A stretch of 64,000 nucleotides of DNA, from NCBI GenBank assembly GCA_003024785.1, contig PUQB01000532.1:62001-126000 (forward strand). Reading direction: 5' to 3'. Shown piece after piece: positions 21,205 through 55,317 of the stretch. Source of the DNA: Selaginella tamariscina (lineage: Eukaryota > Streptophyta > Lycopodiopsida > Selaginellales > Selaginellaceae). Position 1 is the first letter of the stretch; each line of letters opens with the position of its first letter. Under the pieces are notes generated by a model. It made no database searches, was not told the DNA's origin, and was given only the letters and a program-made list of their open reading frames with translations. Position numbers and translations under genes: made by a program.

Positions 21205-23445
21205 GAGTCGTTGATTTACTAAATTGGATCTTATTTTAAGTTATTGGCAAATTCCTATGGCTTTCGAAGATGTTCTTAAAACAACATTCTGAACTCTTTT
21301 TGGTTTATATGATTTCTTGTTATGCCTTTTGGTTTAGTGTTTGCTCCTGCCACATTTTAACACATGATGAATGAAGTTTTTAAATGAATTTTTGGAGACA
21401 GTTGCAAAGTACTTGAATGACATTCTAGTTCATACTCAGGGATCTCGAGAAGATCATCTCAAGAAGTAGCTATGTGTTTAATCATTTACGGAGTATGGGA
21501 TCAAGTTGAAGAAGCCCAAGTGTGTTTTTGGCACAGTTGAAACTACGTATTTGGGGTACATAGTTTCTCGTGAGGGTTATGTGTGGATCCATCCAAGGTG
21601 GAGGATGTGGTGAAATTTCTCATTCAATGGATGTACAATCTTTACAACGATTTCTTGGTAAGGTCACATATTTAGGAAGTTTTATACCTCATTTGGCTAA
21701 TGTCAATGTTCCTTTGCGAGCTTACATGAGGATGTTCCTTTATGTGGACTGACGATTGTGAAGATTCTTTTGTAAGCTATGAAAGTATTTGACGTCCCCT
21801 CTAGTGCTTCATTATCCGGATTTTTCTCGTCCTTTTATATTACGAACGATGCTTTTTTGTAGGTATTGGTGGATCCTAATGTAGACTGAAGTATGTGATG
21901 AGTCCGTTCGACATCCCATTGCATATGTGAGTAGGGCATTGCAAGCCTGAACACAACTATTGTGCTTCAGATCTTGAGTGCTTAGCTGCAGTGTGGGCTT
22001 TTGAGTCTTCATGTATATCTCCATGGGTTTCATATGCTTTTGAAGTGTGATCATGCAGTTGTTTCTACCTTACTGAAGAACAAAAGTTGCTCGGACGATC
22101 TGCCATACGGGCACTTCAACTTCAGATGTATGACTTTAAGGTCAAACCATTCAGGGGATAGTATGGTGGATGCTGATGCTCTTTCTAGGGCTCCTTGTGC
22201 AGTTATCGTTAATCAATCAAGATCTTACAATTCCATCTCTTGCAAGGTCTCAAGGGCTCATGAAAAATGCTTAGATTCAACCTATTCGTTTGGCACTAAC
22301 CAATCCTTCTCAACCTCCAACTTTTTTTCTTCATTTGTGGCACAATTCGCATATATGACAATGTGGTTTATTTTATTAACACATATGTTACGACTTCACT
22401 ACGTTTGGCAATTCCAATCACTTTTGTTCTAGGTATTTTACAGCATATCATGATTCACCACTTTCTGAACATTTTGATTATTGAAGAACTTTGAATAGTT
22501 TACAACATTCTTTTTACTAATTGAATATGCAATGAATGTGATCTAGTATGTACGAGGTTGTTCATGTGTCATGATCAACTGGTGCTTTTAATCTATACAA
22601 GTGGAACGGCTATTCAAACTTGTAGCATGAGATTTAATTGGTCCTTTTCCACCTTCAATTGTAAGAAACCGATATGTTGTGTTTTAATAATTATCATGTT
22701 GGAGCTTTACCAAATGCCACAACCCATACTGCTGCTGATTTCTACTCACTCGAGTAATTTTGCGTCATTCATGTTTAGAAAGGATTTTATCAAATAATAA
22801 ACTTGTTTTTATTGCTGAAGTTTTGAAGGTTCTTACTTCACAGATGGGAATTCAACAATCTTTCACATCTTCTTTTCATCCACAAACAAATAGGCTAGTC
22901 AAGCGTTTAAATTAAACTTTTAAAGGTATGATTTTTAAGTATGCAAATCCTATTCAAAATGATTGGGATTGGTATTTAGGATACTTAGAATTTGTATATA
23001 ACACTAGCATTCAAATTTCCATTGACATGTCCATTCAAAGCATTGTATGAGCGAGACCCTGAATGCCACTAAAAATTGGTTTGGCTTATCACAAACCTAA
23101 GTATGCTAAAGTTCGATATTAGGTAACTTACTTATATCAAGTTCTTTTTTATTGCATGCTATCTCAGTAAAACATTTGGGTCGGTCACAAATTCAACAAT
23201 AACAAGATTATAATTCTCGTCATCGGCCACCTCCTTAATTTACTATTGATGATCTTGTTCTTATGCATTTTTCAGAACTTCATCAAAAAGAGCCCACTCT
23301 AGGTTTCTTACAGAAATGACTCGGTCCTTATAAGATTCTTCGTCAAGTTGGCCCCAAATTTACCATGTGCAAAATGTTGAGTCTCGAGAAACACCTTAAT
23401 TGTTCATGTTTTACGATTGAAAAAGTTTTTTTTACAAGAGGGATA
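21205..23445 (+). pseudogene. Decayed Ty3/gypsy pol (RT, RNase H, integrase)
   Basis: Reverse transcriptase, RNase H and integrase can be followed in order through many stops and frame changes. RT shows F-T-K-L-D-L near 21218, a YLNDILVHT active-site motif near 21410 (normally Y-L/V-D-D, so one catalytic Asp is lost), and K-K-P-K-C-x-F with Y-L-G-Y-I-V-S near 21510-21570. The RNase H end has the ...L-Q-x-Y-D-F-K-V region near 22120 and a D-A-L-S-R-A-like end near 22180. Integrase shows H-P-Q-T-N near 22880 followed by D-W-D-W-Y-L and Y-N-T-S near 22960-23010. Gag and protease are absent. It is inactive. Confidence 0.75.
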
Positions 23446-24479: not shown

Positions 24480-25401
24480 TGCTGCTTCTGTCCCGCAAAG
24501 AAACCAGAATGGCTCCGTCAAAGGACACCACAAGGGGAAAACTTTGTTAAGCTGCAAAACTTGGTCTCTTCATTGAGATGAATACAGTTTGTAAAGAAGC
24601 CAAATGTCCCAATATTGGCGAGGTAAGAAACATTATATATATTCATATTAAATAAACATTAGCAGTGCTGGGTAGTGAGATTTCAACTCTCACAATTATG
24701 TTAATGGGCGACCAATGTACCCGTGGTTGTCGTTTTTGTGCTGTCTCCACAAGTAAGAATCCACCTCCTGTAGATATCAATGAACCCGAAAGAGTCGCTG
24801 CAGCCATCAAAGTATTAAGGTATATATATCTCTTTTCTTCTAGAATCTTAATTCATATCATTTATTTCAGTTTAGGATATGCAGTATTAACTAGTGTGGA
24901 TCGTGATGATCTTCACGATGGTGGCAGCGGTCATTTTGCATATACTGTGAAGCTGATCAAGGTAAGATTTTCTTTTTCTCTAGACATATATACATGGTGT
25001 ATACACATAGGAACGATGTCCGAGCACTTATGTGGAGTGTTTAGTGCCGGATTTCAGAGGCGATCATAATTCCATTGCAGCAATTGCGACATCTGGCCTG
25101 GATGTGTTTGCTCATAACATAGAGACGGTTAACCGCCTTCAAAGAGTTATTCGCGATTCCAGAGCAGGGCAAGTCAAGCTCTCTTTCATATAACTTATAA
25201 TGTTTGTTTTTTAATTACTATTAAACAGGTACCAGCAGAGTTTAAGTGTATTGAAATGTGCAAAGGAAATTAAACCAAACTTTTTACAAAGTCTTCGTTA
25301 ATGCTGGGTCTCGGGGAGAAGGATGATGAGATTAAACAAGCATTAGATGATCTTAAGGAAGTTGGTGTCGATATTGTCACCTTTGGACAATACCTTCAGG
25401 T

Positions 25402-36825: not shown

Positions 36826-36995
36826 TGCTCTTGGTGGAACAATGTCACATGCATCCATAAGTTGGTTCTCTTTTGCCCAGGGTCCTCGATGGGGTCTTGG
36901 GATCTTCTTGCTCTTGGTGGAACAACATGGTCACATGCATCCATAAGTTGGTTCTCTTTTGCCCAGGGTCCTCGATGGGGTCTTGGGATACTTCT
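36826..36995. repeat. Tandem duplication, 83-87 bp unit
   Basis: Two near-identical units (36826-36908 and 36909-36995) start TGCTCTTGGTGGAACAA; the second has a four-base insertion. The second unit ends exactly at the target duplication of the gypsy element. Confidence 0.9.
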
Positions 36996-37019
36996 TGTAA
37001 GGATCATGAGTCATTTTTT

Positions 37020-37100
37020 GCCTTTCACAGGACTTGAACCCGAGACCTTTTGGCTAACACACACGTGTTAGCCAACTAGTCCGTATGATCCTGGATGCTG
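37020..37100 (-). other. tRNA-like (pol III A/B box) segment in the LTR, antisense
   Basis: On the minus strand the LTR holds GGTTCAAGTCC, a perfect fit to the pol III B box, at 37030-37040. About 35-45 bp upstream is an A-box-like GGACTAGTTGGCTAA. A long hairpin (TTGGCTAACAC / GTGTTAGCCAA) sits where an anticodon arm would be. GGATCAT and ATGATCC flank the unit. It is present in both LTRs. I interpret it as a tRNA- or SINE-derived piece captured by the LTR, not a functional tRNA. Confidence 0.5.
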
Positions 37101-37210
37101 AACTACACCATCAACAGCAAGGCGTATATTCATACGCATGTTCTAGACCAGTGTGGACCATACAATCCTCAGGACCTCAGATATATAAACAGGGTTCCAG
37201 TTCCAGGTTT

Positions 37211-37226
37211 CTCAGAATCATTCAAC
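37211..37226 (+). promoter_or_regulatory. Predicted mRNA 5' end, complementary to the PBS
   Basis: CTCAGAATCATTCAA begins 30 bp after the first base of the TATA box, where transcription should start. It is exactly complementary to TTGAATGATTCTGAG at 37345-37359. This is the self-priming geometry described for Tf1 and the Tf1/sushi group. Confidence 0.6.
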
Positions 37227-37342
37227 ACCAGTCTTCGGCCTTGTGTTTCATTTTGTATTCATTTCTTTCTTGAATACAATCTCCTCCTTTCAAGGTTCCA
37301 CCCTTGTTCTAAAGGTTTCGCCCTTTGCACAAGGTCGTGACA

Positions 37343-37360
37343 GTTTGAATGATTCTGAGG
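37343..37360 (+). other. Predicted self-primed PBS
   Basis: The sequence directly after the 5' LTR is GTTTGAATGATTCTGAGG. It is not complementary to any plant primer tRNA 3' end that I recognise (no TGGTATCAGAGC or similar). It pairs with the LTR segment 37211-37228 over 17 pairs with one bulged C. Confidence 0.6.
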
Positions 37361-37501
37361 TAGTGACAAGCTTCTGTTTCCGCTTGTCATCGATCCCATT
37401 TTCTTTCTTTCTCTCTTTTCAATTTTCTTTTCGATTTTTTCTTTTTTTTTTTTTCTGATTTTCTTCTCTTTTTCTTTTTGATTTTTCTTCTTCGACTCAT
37501 C

Positions 37502-38345
37502 ATGTCCGAGCATGCTCTTCATGAGCAAGTTGCTGCCCTCCAGCAGCAGCTCAACAACTACACCTGGAGAATGATCAGCTCCGACAGCGTGCGAATTCTC
37601 CAGAGCCAAGATCAGCATGCCCGAAAAGTTCGATGGTACCCGATCGAAGTTCCGAGGTTTTCTCAATCAAGTTCGTCTGCGGATCGTGATGCAGCCGAGG
37701 CGCTACAGCACAGAACCCATTAAGGTTGGATTGATCGGGTCGCTGCTTTCTGGTTCTGCTCTTTCATGGTTCTCAGCCTTGCTGGAGAACAATGATCCGA
37801 TCCTTGGGAATTTTGACGAGTTTGTGGAACGGTTCACGGCGATGTTCAGTGACGTGGATCGTGAGAGTGCTGCCATCACCAAACTCCGTCAGCTTCACCA
37901 AGGGGGTATGTCGGTAGCAGAGTACGCATCGAAGTTTCAACTTCTTGCTTGTGATGTCACATGGGGAGATCGTGCTCTCAAGGAGGTTTTCTTCGGGGTT
38001 GCAGGACGAGGTCAAAGACATGTTGCTGAATTTTGCGGTTCCGGAAACCCTCACCAGCATGATCGAGTTGGCAATTCGTTGTGACAACCGGTTGATCGAG
38101 CGGAAACAAGAACGTCGGCATCCTTCTTTCTTCTTGGTGCCGTCTTCTTCCATTTCTGCAGTCCCTGTTCCCTCATCTGCTGATTCATCATCTTCCTCAG
38201 TAGAACCATCCCCGATGGAATTAGGGCGATCACGCCGAGGCAAGCTTTTGCCAACCGAACGTCAGAAGCGGATTCAGTACAAGCTTTGTTTGTACTGTGG
38301 GGACCCGTACCACAAGTTGGAGAATTGTCATCGACGTCCAAAACA
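37502..38345 (+). pseudogene. Chromovirus gag
   Basis: The first Met at 37502 starts a coiled-coil-like N-terminus (EQVAALQQQL). After a frame change near 37615 comes the capsid-like retrotransposon Gag domain (about 37617-38010: KFDGTRSKFRGF, VGLIGSLLSGSALSWF, FDEFVERF, YASKFQLLA). After another change near 38000 comes GLQDEVKDML and a Ser-rich linker. A C-x2-C-x4-H-x4-C zinc knuckle (CLYCGDPYHKLENC) lies at about 38287-38328. It packages element RNA into cytoplasmic particles. Two frame breaks separate otherwise well-kept segments. Confidence 0.85.
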
Positions 38346-38784
38346 AGCTCGTGAAGTGGCCCTTAGCTGTGCTGCCGGGAAACGAGAAGATCCAGCCCGA
38401 ATAGGAGCCGTCCGGCTGGATTGCCGTGGAACAACTCATGTTCCTCAAGGCTCTTCACTCATAACATCTTCCCTTCCTCATCTTGGATCCATTCCATCCA
38501 CGAAGGTGTGCAAGCCGTTCCATGTTCCGGTGCAGCTGAAGACACCAGAGGTGGAGTTCTCTGGTAAAGCTTTGGTGGATAGCGGAGCGAACGCAAATTT
38601 CATCGACAAGAATTTTGCTGTCAAGCACGGGATCCGTCTACATCCTTTGAAGACTCCTGGTTCTGTACGGGTCGTTGATGGACGAGATATCAAATCTGGA
38701 GCGGTAACAAATGACACGGAGTTCGTTGAGGTCGTTGCTTGCGGTGCTGTGTGCAACATCTCCTTCATGTTATTTCTATTCTAG
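38346..38784 (+). pseudogene. Chromovirus protease
   Basis: It continues in the zinc-knuckle frame. The aspartic protease motif is ALVDSGANANFID at about 38571-38609, with the catalytic D-S-G-A intact. The frame ends early at 38784 (LFLF-stop), where the expected I-I-L-G-x-P-W end of the protease is readable in another frame near 38795-38815. It would cleave the polyprotein. Confidence 0.8.
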
Positions 38785-39159: not shown

Positions 39160-40460
39160 GGTCCCCATTACGGTCTCTCACCACTAGTGGAGACATTGAG
39201 GAAATAACATTGAGGAGAATCTTGTCACCGGATTTATCCGTCATTCGCGATCACCGGCTGGTGCTCCAGTATTCTTTGTTTCCAAGAAGGATGGAAGTCT
39301 CCGGCTCGTGGTGGACTACCGAGATCTGAATAAGGTCACCATTCCAAACAAGTATCCTCTCCCGCTCGTCTCCGACATGCTCGAACGTCTTTCTGGTGCC
39401 CGGTACTTCACAAAGATCGATTTAAGAGGAGCGTACAATCTCATCCGAATTCGAGAAGGGGACGAGTGGAAAACAGCTTTCCGTACACGCTACGGACATT
39501 TCGAGTACGTAGTAATGCCGTTCGGCCTGACAAATGCACCTGCTGTGTTCCAGCACATGGCTAACGATATTTTCGGGACTTCTTGGATTTGTTTGTCATC
39601 ATGTACCTAGACGACATCCTGATATTTTCCAAGACTCGAGAAGAACACGAACGGCATGTACGGTTAGTCTTGGAGAGGCTCCGGAAGCACCACTTGTTTG
39701 CCAAGTTGGAGAAGTGCTCTTTCAGTCAGCAGTCTGTCGAGTTCCTGGGGTACATCATTTCAGCTGAAGGTGTTCACATGGATCCTGCAAAAGTCCGGAC
39801 TGTATTGGAGTGGGAGAGACCATCAAATGTTCGTGATGTTCGATGTTTCCTCGGGTTTGCGAACTTCTATCGACGTTTCGTTCGGGATTTCTCCAAGATT
39901 GCATTGCCATTGACGAAGTTGACTGGCAAGGATGTTCCATTTGTCTGGTCCTCTGAGGCTGAGGAGGCGTTCGAGTTCCTAAAGAAGGCGTTCACCTCGG
40001 CACCTGTTCTTATCCATCCTGACCCGAAGCCATATTTCGTGGAAGCTGATGCCTCTGACTTCGCCATTGGTGGAGTGTTGTCCCAGGAAGGTCCAGATCA
40101 TCTTCTCCATCCCATTGCTTTCCATTCCCGCAAGTTCACTGCACCTGAGATCAACTACGATGTCTACAACAAGGAGCTGCTGGCGATCGTCGATGCCTTT
40201 GAGGAGTGGGCAGATTCCTTGAAGGTTCCCCGCATGTGGTTAAGGTGTATTGTGATCACAAGAACCTCCAGTACTGGGCAACAGCACGAGTTCTCAATCG
40301 ACGTCAGGCGCGATGGGCACAGTCTTTGTCCCGGTTCCGATACGTGATTATTCATCGTCCCGGTCGTCTAAATGGCAAAGCAGATGCCTTATCTCGTCGC
40401 AGTTACCTAGCTCCAGTACCAGGTGAAATCCGATTTGATCAACAAGAACAAGTCATCTGA
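39160..40460 (+). pseudogene. Chromovirus reverse transcriptase-RNase H
   Basis: 38785-39230 carries the linker with several frame changes. RT proper: [32 protein letters not shown], the [10 protein letters not shown] motif, then after a frame change near 39583 the active site [11 protein letters not shown] (39601-39633), and FLGYIISAEG. RNase H follows with FVEADASDFAIGGVLSQ, YDVYNKELLAIV and, after a frame change near 40210, [11 protein letters not shown] and GKADALSRR. Catalytic residues are kept; only frame breaks spoil the gene. Confidence 0.85.
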
Positions 40461-40521
40461 GCTCCGACCAGTTGTTGGTAAACGCGCTTTCCCGTTCTTC
40501 TGCTCCAGTTGACACTTCGTT

Positions 40522-41430
40522 TTGGATCTAATCCGAGAAAATCTCCCTCAAGACGAGTTTGCTCGTGATGTCCTTGCACATGTTCGACGAGTTCAGCCAT
40601 TGTCTTCAGGGTCACAACTACGAGATTATGCTGCTTTCCATCTTCATAATGGGTTGCTGTACCACCACATCCAAATCTATGTTCCGGACGGAGAACTGAG
40701 GTTGCGAGCTGTCCAACACTGCCATGACAACACAGCTGCAGGACATTTTGGCATTCGAAAGACGATCGAGCTGGTACAACGGGTGTTCTGGTGGCCTCGG
40801 CTTCGCGTGTATGTTGAGAGATTTGTGCGATCTTGTGACACGTGCCAGCGTACAAAGCTTCCTCGTCATCGACCGGTTGGACTACTACAGCCTCTTCCTA
40901 TTGCTCAGCGGCCATGGTCATCCATCACCATGGATTTCCTCACGGATTTACCGCCTTCTAGAGGGTTTGATGCTGTCCTAGTCATTGTTGACCGGTTCTC
41001 TAAGATGGCGCACTTTGTTCCCTGCAACAAGACATGTTCGGGTCCTGATGCTGCAGATCTGGTGTACCGGGAGGTGTTCCGCCTTCATGGTCTTCCTGAT
41101 GAACTTGTCACTGATCGAGGTCCCCAGTTCACTTCGGCATTCTGGCGGAGATTCCTAGATCGGCTACGTATCACCGGGAAGCTGTCTACTGCACATCATC
41201 CTGAAACAGATGGACAATCGGACGCACAATTCAGACTCTGGAACAATATCTCCGGTGTTTCATTTCTCATCTGCAAGATGATTGGGTCGATCTCCTTCCT
41301 GCTGCGAGTTGCGTACAACAACACGGCACACTCATCCATAGGTGTGTCGCCATTTTTCGCGTTCTCTGGTGTTCATCCTCGCTGGTCCTACAGCTTGCCG
41401 TGGTTCCTGGCCTCACCACTGCTGCGATGA
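40522..41430 (+). pseudogene. Chromovirus integrase
   Basis: The zinc-binding H-H-C-C region is present (HDNTAAGHFG, then CDTCQ at about 40835-40850). The catalytic core has Asp in TMDFLTDLP and Asp in VTDRGPQF. The expected catalytic Glu region reads HHPETDGQSDAQ, then the frame shifts (a QTLEQYLRCF-like stretch continues in another frame from about 41230). So the annotated frame has Asp or a break where Glu is expected. NNTAHSSIGVSPFF near 41320-41360 is back in the first frame. Confidence 0.85.
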
Positions 41431-41927
41431 TCGTGTTGAGCATCTCCGACAGGTCCATGAGAAGTGCAGCATCATCTTCAACGCGCTCGGGATTTGCAAC
41501 AACAAGCTGCTGATCGTTCCCGTTCCTCTCCTCCAGCATTCACAATTGGTGACCAAGTGTGGCTCCTCCGGCGTCATTGGCAACCACACGTCCCTGTGAC
41601 AAGCTGGACTATCAACGCTTGGGGCCATTTCGCATATCGACAAACTCTCTGATGTGACGTTTCGTCTCGAGCTTCCGCCAACCATCCGGATCCATCCCGT
41701 GTTCCATGTTTCTTTGTTGGAGCCTTATCATGCTCCTTCTGAACCTGGCCGACTTCTTCCACCTCCTCCAGTTACAGTTGCTGGTGAACCTAGTTCGAGG
41801 TTGCTGCAATTCTTGACTCCAAACTTGTTCGTGGTCAGCTTCACTATTTCGTGGACTGGATCGGTTATCCACCTGGCGAACGCACTTGGGAGCCTGCTGC
41901 TCATTTGTTCATGCTCCTGATCTTGTT
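41431..41927 (+). pseudogene. Integrase C-terminus and chromodomain
   Basis: In pieces from different frames: a GDQVWLL motif (about 41555), [14 protein letters not shown] and [12 protein letters not shown] (41635-41730), then a chromodomain with [14 protein letters not shown] and T-W-E-P-A (about 41845-41895). Chromodomains of this kind steer insertion toward particular chromatin. The DNA from 41598 onward is the first unit of a tandem array. Confidence 0.8.
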
Positions 41928-42530
41928 GACAAGCTGGACTATCAACGCTTGGGGCCATTTTGCATCATCGACAAACTCTCTGATGTGACGTTTCGTCTCG
42001 AGCTTCCGCCAACCATCCGGATCCATCCCGTGTTCCATGTTTCTTTGTTGAGCCTTATCATGCTCCTTCTGAACCTGGCCGACTTCTTCCGCCACCTCCT
42101 CCAGTTACAGTTGCTGGTGAACCTTAGTTCGAGGTTGCTGCAATTCTTGACTCCAAACTAGTTCGTGGTTAGCTTCACTATTTCGTGGACTGGATCGGTT
42201 ATCCACCTGGCGAACGCACTTGGAGCCTGCTGCTCATCTTTTCATGCTCCTGATCTTGTTGACAAGCTGGACTATCAACGCTTGGGGCCATTTTGCATCA
42301 TCGACAAACTCTCTGATGTGACGTTTCGTCTCGAGCTTCTGCCAACCATCCGGATCCATCCCGTGTTCCATGTTTCTTTGTTGGAGCCTTATCATGCTCC
42401 TTTCTGAACCTGGCAACTTCTTCCACTACCTCCTCCAGTTAACAGTTGCTGGTGAACCTGAGTTCGAGGTTGCTGCAATTCTTGACTCCAAACTAATTCG
42501 TGGTCAGCTTCACTATTTCATGGACTGGTG
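41598..42530 (+). repeat. Tandem repeat of the chromodomain end, 330-bp units
   Basis: The landmark GACAAGCTGGACTATCAACG recurs at 41598, 41928 and 42261, giving periods of 330 and 333 bp. Each unit covers the end of the integrase C-domain plus the chromodomain. The third unit is truncated. Confidence 0.95.
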
Positions 42531-42750
42531 AACCTGAGTTCGAGGTTGCTGCAATTCTTGACTCCAAACTGTCGTTCAGCTTCACTATTTCGTGGATTGG
42601 TGAACCTGAGTTCGAGGTTGCTGCAATTCTTGACTCCAAACTAGTTTGTGGTCAGCTTCACTATTTCGTGGACTGGTGAATCTGAGTTCGAGGTTGCGCA
42701 ATTCTTGACTCCAAACTAGTTCGTGGTCAGCTTCACTATTTCGTGGAGTT
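42454..42750 (+). repeat. Tandem repeat of the chromodomain core, about 75-bp units
   Basis: GAACCTGAGTTCGAGGTTGC-like starts lie at 42454, 42530, 42602 and 42678 (last one GAATCTGAG). The unit encodes the core of the chromodomain and is nested in the end of the 330-bp array. Confidence 0.95.
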
Positions 42751-42885
42751 CATCAAAATATCCTGCAAAACCTTGCCGATTTCATCAACGATATCCTGCA
42801 AAACCTATTCGTGGAGTTTCATCAACAATATCCTGCAAAACCTTGCCGAGTTTCATCAACGATATCCTGCAAAACCTAGACTAGT
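42751..42885 (+). repeat. Short tandem repeats before the polypurine tract
   Basis: ATATCCTGCAAAACCT occurs four times with TTTCATCAACGAT-like linkers and two GCCGA inserts. It is probably 3' untranslated. Confidence 0.9.
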
Positions 42886-42917
42886 GACGCGCGGTGCGTC
42901 ATCGAAGGGGGAGATAG

Positions 42918-43316
42918 TGTAAGGATCATGGGTCATTTTTTGCCCTTTCACAGGACTTGAACCCAAGACCTTTTGGCTAACACACACATGTGTAACCAAC
43001 TGGTCCGTATAATCCTGGATGCTGAACTACACCATCAACAGCAAGGTGTATATTCATACGTATGTTCTAGACTAGTGTGGACCACACATTCCAGACCAGT
43101 TGTGGATCACACATTCCAGGCAGTTGTGACCATACAATCCTCAGGACCTCAGATATATAAACAGGTTCCAGTTCCAGGTTTCTCAGAATCATTCAACACC
43201 AGTCTTCAGCCTTGTGTTTCATTTTTGTATTCATTTCTTTCTTTGAATACAATCTCCCCTCCTTTCAAGGTTCCACCCTTGTTCTAAAGGTTTCGCCCTT
43301 TGCACAAGTCGTGACA
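42918..43316 (+). repeat. 3' LTR of the chromovirus
   Basis: 399 bp, homologous to the 5' LTR, with an internal duplication near 43080-43130 and the same antisense tRNA-like segment, TATA box and CTCAGAATCATTCAAC stretch. Confidence 0.95.
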
Positions 43317-43321
43317 CTTCT

Positions 43322-53479: not shown

Positions 53480-54391
53480 ATGGTAACCACTAACCTCAGT
53501 CCTTTCAAGGAAGAAAATATCCTTTGGTTGGACAGTTGTGCCAATGTTCACTGTACTCCAGAATTTGCCGCTTTTAAGACATATCAGGCAATCCCAGTGG
53601 GAGAAGGAGTCTACACGAGAGATCATCAACCATTGAGCATTGCAGGAGTCGGGATAGTAGAGATTCAACTCCAGAATGGTGAGATTGTCGATCTTCGACA
53701 TGTTCATTATGTCCCCACACTCAGCAAAACTCTTATCTTGGTTGGGAAGATAGTAGATGCAGGTTGGAAAGGTCAGATCGATAAGGACAAGATCACTTAC
53801 ACTGACAAGCAACCAACCAAGGCATCATCGGTTGGAAGACAGCATAGGCAACCATTCCCCAGTAAGGGCATCTGCTGTAAGACCACTCAACCTCTAGAAT
53901 TAGTGCACACAGACGTGTGTGGACCAATGCATGTTCAGTCATTGAACAGAAGGAGGTATTTTGTGACGTTTATAGATGATTATACTCGTTACACAGTGGT
54001 GAAATTCTTGATTAACAAATCAGAAGTAGCAGAAATGTTTCGGTTATATAAGATTGCTGCAGAAAACGTGTGGCAGAATTTGAAAATCCGCGTACTTAGG
54101 AGTGATAGAGGTGGGGAGTATCAAGCAAGTGTGCTTAAGAAGTTGTGTGAAGAATCTGGGATTCAACAGCAGTTTACAGCCCCATACTCAGCTCAGCAAA
54201 ATGAGAGTGGCGGAAGAATGAATCGAACTCTAGTGGAGACGACAAGATGCATGCTTATGCATGCAGGAACACCGCTCAATTATTGGGCAGAGGCCTTAAG
54301 CACAGCCAGCTACATCCGGAATCGACTTCCTGCAAGTAGCATTGGTGGAGAAGTTCCATTCACCCGTGGACTGGGAAGCGAGTCAGTTTGA
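53480..54391 (+). pseudogene. Copia Gag-start/protease/integrase fusion
   Basis: A 303-codon frame begins with the first residues of Gag (MVTTNLSPFKEEN). It jumps at once to the protease motif, read here as W-L-D-S-C-A-N-V-H (Gly of D-S-G replaced by Cys), so a deletion has removed most of Gag including the zinc knuckle. Integrase follows: HTDVCGPM (first Asp), LRSDRGGEY (second Asp), and QQNESGGRMNRTLVE, where the catalytic Glu position before R-x-N-R-T is Gly. The frame ends at a break near 54385. Protease and integrase therefore look dead even apart from the frames. Confidence 0.85.
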
Positions 54392-55317
54392 AACACCTTC
54401 GTGTGTTTGGGTGCTTGGCATATGCACATGTTCCAAACGAACTCCGTCGTAAGTTGGAACAGAAGAGTAACATGTATATCATGGTGGGATATTGCCATGA
54501 GAGCAAGGCATATAGGCTTTACGATCCCACTCACCAGAAAATTGTTGTGAGCCGAGACGTTAAGTTTAATGAGGATATGCTTTACAAAGATAGGTTTACA
54601 GTTCAAGTTAATCCGACAGCTTATATTCTTGAGGAAGAGCAACCACAGGATCCACCAGCACATGGGCATGATCCAGGGCAGATTGGGGAAGATCCAGGAC
54701 TGCAGATTGCAGCAGATACAGATCTGAGTGAGGAGGAGCACGAAAGCGAGGAGGAGATTCCTCCACTTCAGCAAGCACCTTCGCAGGTACCTAATCCAGA
54801 CCGACCCATCAACACAATCACGAGAAGTGGGAGAATTAGCTACAAGTCACGAAAGGCAAGAGAAGCTGATGAGTCTTCAACCTCCTTCTTCACCTCCAGG
54901 TATCCTCGGGAGCCCCGGACAGTGCATGAAGCTATGCAATCACAAGAGGCAGCAGAATGGAGGGCTGCCATGGAGGAGGAATATGCTTCTCTCCTCAAGA
55001 ACCAGGTTTGGGAGCTTGTTACTCTTCCCCACGGTCGTCGCACTGTAAGTACCAAGTGGCTATTCAAGAAGAAGCTGGATGCACATGGCGAAGTACTCCG
55101 ATACAAGGCTCGGTTTGTTGCACGAGGATTCTCACAAATCGCTGGAGTTGACTTCTATGAGACGTATTCACCAGTGGTGAAGATGGCTTCCATTCGTCTC
55201 ATTCTTCGGATAGCAACTAGCTTGAATCTGGAAGTTCACCAGCTTGATGTAAAGACTGCTTTCCTGTATGGAGAGCTGAAGGAAGGAGAGACAAGTCATG
55301 GCACAGATTCCTTATAG
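54388..55317 (+). pseudogene. Copia integrase tail and 5' part of RT
   Basis: It starts in the conserved HLRVFGCLAYAHVP segment. An acidic Pro-rich linker follows, then the RT domain: AMEEEYASLLKNQVWELV, VSTKWLFKKK, YKARFVARGFSQ, DFYETYSPVVKM, and [16 protein letters not shown]. There it jumps straight to the [11 protein letters not shown] segment in another frame, so the region holding the Y-V-D-D active site is deleted. Confidence 0.85.

Follow-up and report, generated by a model that had tools for sequence, protein, structure and literature searches.

Covarying LTR and primer-binding-site sequences point to self-priming in a chromodomain Ty3/gypsy retrotransposon of Selaginella tamariscina

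The RNA of a decayed Ty3/gypsy retrotransposon from Selaginella tamariscina very probably primes its own reverse transcription with its 5′ 12 nt. The element lies in a 64,000-nt stretch of contig PUQB01000532.1 (hereafter the window), and its self-priming, proposed in an original prediction, gains support from primer/PBS pairs specific to each family, a constant spacing from the TATA box and covariation. In the proposed mechanism, transcription would start ~32 nt past the TATA box, at or near A37214, and the first 12 nt of the RNA (37214-37225) would fold onto a primer-binding site (PBS) at 37345-37356, two bases past the 5′ LTR, forming a helix that adjoins a U5-IR-like stem. The element's RNase H would then cut after CAA and before CACCAG, and the freed 12-mer AGAAUCAUUCAA would prime minus-strand DNA and be joined to the 5′ end of the cDNA. 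What is read directly from the DNA is the complementarity, its 12-nt limit in the window's own family (F1), the covariation in relatives and the constant place of the helix relative to the TATA box, the LTR end and CACCAG. In the published work that we found, self-priming in plants takes the form of predictions, for which the covariation described here is good evidence.

The window copy has two LTRs with TG..CA ends and a 5-bp duplication, and its order of gag, protease, reverse transcriptase-RNase H, integrase and chromodomain is that of gypsy elements. It is a decayed chromodomain Ty3/gypsy element (chromovirus) with broken reading frames. Alignment of the 5′ and 3′ LTRs over 345 sites shows 10 substitutions, every one a transition, a pattern that would fit decay of methylated cytosines; a 48-bp U3 stretch present in the 3′ LTR is absent from the 5′ LTR, and there are several short indels besides. 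We take the F, W and Y of the chromodomain to be aromatic cage residues. The features, all on the forward (+) strand, are as follows.

36991..36995, +, target-site duplication CTTCT, left
36996..37342, +, 5′ LTR, 347 bp, TGTAAGG...GTGACA, from the LTR-LTR alignment
37182..37189, +, TATA box TATATAAA, 32 nt from its first base to the start of the 12-nt helix
37211..37213, +, outer three bases of the 15-nt match, with partners unlike those of the window in 15 of 28 F1 copies
37214..37225, +, 12-nt self-primer AGAATCATTCAA, predicted RNA +1 to +12 (putative RNA start)
37226..37231, +, conserved CACCAG right after the primer, predicted cleavage CAA/CACCAG
37231..37246, +, predicted second stem, 5′ arm (folding; 0 of 100 shuffles as high for the window copy)
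37327..37341, +, predicted second stem, 3′ arm, ending one base short of the LTR end
37343..37344, +, spacer GT separating LTR and PBS; relatives have G[T/A/C]
37345..37356, +, self-primer binding site TTGAATGATTCT, unchanged in 28 of 28 F1 copies
37357..37359, +, GAG, outer PBS-side bases, variable among F1 copies
37575..38081, +, gag piece with Retrotrans_gag, Ty3_capsid and DUF4939 (Pfam)
37918..38781, +, C-terminal part of gag and protease piece, in a different frame (Pfam)
39200..39607, +, reverse transcriptase piece, RVT_1 (Pfam)
39565..40344, +, end of reverse transcriptase and RNase H piece (Pfam)
40513..41427, +, integrase piece with H2C2 zinc finger and rve core (Pfam)
41794..41907, +, chromodomain (Pfam), F, W and Y aligning with HP1-type chromodomains
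41597..42878, +, tandem duplications around and after the chromodomain, units of 333, 76, 71 and 34 bp
42904..42914, +, polypurine tract GAAGGGGGAGA, 3 bases 5′ of the 3′ LTR
42918..43316, +, 3′ LTR, 399 bp, with the primer sequence also present, from 43182
43317..43321, +, target-site duplication CTTCT, right

Read as its reverse complement, the segment CTCAGAATCATTCAA (37211-37225) recurs without mismatch at 37345-37359, which confirms the 15 contiguous LTR/PBS pairs originally described. A match of this length exceeds chance. None of 3000 dinucleotide-shuffled LTRs reached a 15-base match, the longest being 13 (once). When other 25-mers were compared with the LTR, 1108 from the internal region gave a longest match of 11 (three times) and 2856 from the window outside the element a longest match of 13 (once). 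Past a one-base bulge at C37226, A37227 and C37228 are able to pair with T37344 and G37343. Relatives have T, A or C as the second spacer base and a constant AC on the LTR side, which makes these two pairs doubtful; they were dropped from the helix as unproven. Other inverted repeats, such as CCTGTA-type arrays and AT-rich arms, do not lie at the primer and PBS places and were set aside.

Copies of F1 were collected from the genome (300.7 Mb in 1391 contigs) with a 261-bp query. The best 40 of 924 candidates were scored, with 99-100% identity over 259-261 bases, and 28 of these 40 make up the sample: eight loci, including the window copy (L005), and 20 further copies. All 28 contain CTCAGAATCATTCAA on the primer side and share TTGAATGATTCT at PBS positions 1-12; every copy keeps the inner 12 pairs, and no copy without complementarity appeared in this sample. 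Beyond them, every PBS-side position from 13 to 22 varies. Positions 13-15 read GAG in 13 copies, GGG in seven, AGG in five and GGT in three. Since the inner 12 pairs are invariant and positions 13-15 variable, the kept complementarity is 12 nt long and not 15, a limit that reflects few events because the variation at 13-15 amounts to four haplotypes. The F1 copies are recent and near-identical, with almost no variation on the LTR side or at the LTR end either (a difference at +20 in one copy). Of the helix originally described, with 15 pairs plus two across the bulge, the inner 12 pairs are thus kept; the outer three match the window in 13 of 28 copies, and the bulge pairs are questionable.

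Further families came from a PF16297 search, in which the best 150 of 2709 gag candidates were scored and 90 of the 150 examined; the F1 and F2 copies examined are top-ranked matches. Both sides were scored in 83 of the 90 loci, leaving seven unscored (L009, L012, L013, L026, L035, L186 and L187). With anchor and PBS chosen by best pairing and up to five mismatches accepted, all 12 Watson-Crick pairs were found in 67 loci, one mismatch in 11 and two to four mismatches in five. Eighty-two of the scored loci form family F2, and one (L032) represents F3. The genome thus contains three families with three primers, AGAATCATTCAA in F1, AGTTAC[T/A]ATCAA in F2 and ATTCCGGTTCAA in the single F3 locus, each complementary to its own PBS. 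The motif following the primer in the 83 loci is CACCAG in 77, CACTAG in five and CGCCAG in one.

Substitutions in the LTR and PBS were found to co-vary. The seventh primer base of F2 and its partner are T-A in 57, A-T in 14, A-A in two and T-T in none of 73 table rows, which reads as a compensatory switch. In a tree of 82 leaders, most A-T copies sit among T-A copies on zero-length branches, with L010 elsewhere; most forks lack resolution, and the well-supported branches are compatible with the A-T switch having arisen once. Locus counts are not independent events because the copies are related. For all types together, 89 rows (83 gag loci, the window and five MAG loci described below) comprise 20 distinct primer/PBS combinations, in which 222 of 240 cells pair with G-U counted; 2000 shuffles of the PBS rows, which do not keep relatedness, gave a mean of 173 and a maximum of 197. 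One MAG locus with incomplete pairing (L061) lies outside the 240 cells.

The 12-nt limit is less sharp in F2 than in F1. Among 79 F2 rows, selected with a bias toward pairing (up to five mismatches accepted, then three rows with more than two dropped), position 13 varies in 17, position 14 in 11, position 12 in three, position 15 in two and position 16 in four. The rows left out of this table are L032 (F3) and L158, L165 and L175 (more than two mismatches). In F2 loci such as L010, L019 and L021, the post-primer motif and the PBS are 89 to 565 nt apart, and L010 has many CCTG/TCCTG-type repeats between the two.

By analogy with the retroviral PBS, which is reset by its tRNA, the PBS of these elements may be rewritten at every replication cycle from the first 12 nt of the element's RNA, an idea to which we give slightly less than an even chance. 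Under such rewriting, a change in the LTR primer would appear in the PBS at once, with nothing else altered and none beyond base 12. F2 copies with identical or near-identical leaders that differ by a matched change in LTR and PBS fit this idea, as does the F1 limit at position 12. We hold the estimate down because positions 13-15 offer only four F1 haplotypes and F2 positions 15-16 vary little. More broadly, high-copy families with different primers and compensatory switches make it possible to propose the RNA start, the primer length and the mode of PBS inheritance from genomic sequence.

An integrase alignment search of prokaryote assemblies identified 51 loci, presumably eukaryotic contamination. 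Twelve of them (L059-L066, L077, L087, L088 and L103), with eukaryote-type gypsy integrases, are in a 'Trichormus' MAG; other prokaryote assemblies also contain integrases of this type. The same primer/PBS plan is present in five of the 12 (L060, L062, L063, L064 and L087). Their primers, AAGGCGAACAA, AAGGTGAACAA or ACTCTTGATCAA, constitute two further primer types, the change from AAGGCGAACAA to AAGGTGAACAA being a compensated variant within one type. The post-primer motif is CACCAG, or CACAAG in L063 and L064, and GACAG[T/A/C] precedes the matching PBS in all five. L061 from the same MAG looks chimeric, having two LTR stretches with different primers and partial PBS pairing, and was counted as a miss; L099 and L106, with two mismatches and the flanking context absent, were taken as chance matches. 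That the plan was unseen in the other 45 loci says little, because their contigs may not include a 5′ LTR. The MAG contigs are probably fern DNA, because Trichormus azollae is the cyanobacterium of the fern Azolla. If they are Azolla DNA, the primer-site plan would extend to ferns.

Viral contigs served as a control. The flanking motifs alone gave 48 matches there, all with 3-4 contiguous pairs, three of them imposed by the motifs; these were taken as chance and not as relatives. Two protein pattern scans matched 3 and 40 stretches of the viral contigs, among which tblastn revealed no relative. A separate observation concerns L060, L063, L064 and L087, in which a PBS-like TTCGCCTT (TTCACCT in L087) lies between the TATA box and the predicted start. 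This stretch changes along with the primer, giving three co-varying places in these four loci; inspection by eye did not detect it in the F1-F3 stretches.

The elements share a common plan, in which an 11-12-nt helix is followed by CACCAG or a near variant and the PBS lies 2-3 bases past the LTR end GACA. The first base of the TATA-like box is 32 nt from the helix start in one element each of F1, F2 (box CATAAAAG) and F3, and also in L060, L063, L064 and L087 (31 to the C before the 11-nt helix); with 33 nt in L062, the 32-nt spacing holds for seven of the eight elements measured. Plant transcripts start at about this distance past the TATA box. The LTR segment had been placed 30 bp from the TATA box, and the actual distance is 29 bp for 37211 and 32 bp for 37214. 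Given the 12-nt limit and the TATA spacing, the simplest reading is that the RNA would start at A37214 and that complementarity is kept for transcribed bases only; the outer CTC (37211-37213) would then probably lie 5′ of the RNA start. Between LTR and PBS, the MAG loci and F1 have GT, GA or GC as spacer, and F3 has GTT. Because this spacer varies in the MAG loci and F1 while the AC after the bulge is constant there, the favoured reading is a primer that ends at CAA, with a spacer of two bases that is possibly the dinucleotide trimmed by integrase.

RNA folding of 11 elements, each taken from the start to the end of the helix, predicted the primer helix in all of them, with a mean pair probability of 0.90-0.97 that is favoured by an input ending at the helix itself. 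When F3 was folded over a longer stretch, the minimum-energy structure did not contain the primer helix. A second stem, joining the bases that follow CACCA to those that precede GACA, exceeds shuffled sequences in eight of the 11 (at most 5 of 100 as high) and is weak or absent in F2_L021 (8 of 100 as high), F3 (26 of 100) and L063 (99 of 100). In Tf1 and retroviruses, the U5-IR stem is similar to it.

The presence of this second stem next to the helix in eight of 11 folds could also suit a conserved leader structure serving packaging, dimerisation or translation and not priming, and structure by itself does not demonstrate priming. We consider this alternative unlikely, since the helix sits at the junction of LTR and internal region, where a minus-strand primer is needed, no other PBS was seen, and the complementarity has its limit near the expected RNA start. 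The likely kinship with the Tf1/sushi group also argues against it, as self-priming of Tf1 has been shown experimentally (PMC4600332, PMC7175516).

Less probable still is that an unrecognised tRNA or half-tRNA serves as primer and the LTR match is coincidental. By the CCA rule, a PBS for a tRNA 3′ end starts with TGG; none is present near the LTR end (37325-37380), and Rfam gave no match in 36990-37600. Half-tRNA primers do not require CCA, and among plant elements priming by tRNA is more common than any other type (PMC6317226). A shared tRNA, however, does not explain the families, because their PBSs differ and each matches its own LTR; covariation can in this way separate self-priming from tRNA priming. 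Chance complementarity in one dead copy, for which the broken frames of the window copy might speak, is negligible in view of the 3000 shuffles, the F1 copies with their intact inner pairs and the other families with pairs of their own.

The gag piece matches PF16297 and PF19259. An integrase tree was built from the window element, 11 database proteins and 31 of the 51 prokaryote-assembly loci, 43 rows in all. In it the window element falls within a set of 13 rows that includes Trichormus-MAG elements (100/96). This set joins four frog gypsy-type rows, which we take to be sushi-type, and three rumen-MAG rows (95/81). The organism-named rows among the best 120 of 1753 integrase matches are four frog, two fungal, one algal and two bacterial-MAG; seed plants are absent from these named rows, in a database rich in seed-plant proteins. 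The element therefore probably belongs to the Tf1/sushi/Tcn1 group, a label that is likely and not shown because the tree is without named Tf1, sushi and Tcn1 elements and other plant chromovirus clades. The description of its Gag as sushi/Tcn1-like is likewise favoured by the two Pfam families and the frog gypsy-type integrases, and unproven for want of named references in the tree.

Tcn1 elements have been reported from mosses, Selaginella and fungi (Novikova et al. 2010, PMC2864245). The Selaginella element SM-Tcn1, a Tcn1-type chromovirus from a non-seed plant, shares with ours the thymine-rich leader and the 5-bp target duplication. Neither a tRNA PBS nor self-priming was found in SM-Tcn1 (PMC2864245), which counts against the self-priming reading of the window element. 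A survey of plant elements predicted self-priming for 12% of them and for the majority of moss and club-moss elements of the Tcn1 clade, which lack a tRNA PBS (Neumann et al. 2019, PMC6317226). The Tcn1 clade also consists of chromodomain Ty3/gypsy elements, and an aromatic-cage chromodomain characterises 95% of it as well as 59% of Chlamyvir and 56% of Galadriel (PMC6317226); the window element has this feature, which is not exclusive to Tcn1. Self-priming was predicted, too, for TAR elements (Houba, Osr-1), which are plant elements like ours from another superfamily, Ty1/copia (PMC6317226). The idea that the window element would be a notable exception among land plants is not supported in view of these predictions for Tcn1 and TAR elements (PMC6317226), and because self-priming of plant Tcn1 was already predicted there, the element represents a further case of a known mechanism and not a new one. 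The covariation, 12-nt limit and TATA geometry found here were not seen for the Tcn1 clade in the available sections of PMC6317226, and the literature searched, accessible in part, yielded no published report of LTR/PBS covariation in plants. In Tf1, the first 11 RNA bases pair with the PBS and the cut falls between bases 11 and 12 (PMC7175516); the primer left by RNase H is thus 11 nt by experiment in Tf1, as against a predicted 12 nt in the window element.

Several other observations were made in the window. On the minus strand of the U3 region, 37030-37074 contains a B-box-like GGTTCAAGTCC (37030-37040) with A-box-like motifs and is perhaps a tRNA- or SINE-like stretch; neither ARAGORN nor Rfam called a tRNA there. 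An ORF at 22001-22432, without a Pfam match, has a VDADALSR-like motif that to us is reminiscent of the end of a gypsy RNase H. The ORF at 24665-25069 has a Radical_SAM Pfam match below the cut-off, and its start, in our judgement, resembles a lipoyl synthase exon. Ty1/copia remnants (integrase, RVT_2 and SH3_retrovirus) occupy 53480-55314.
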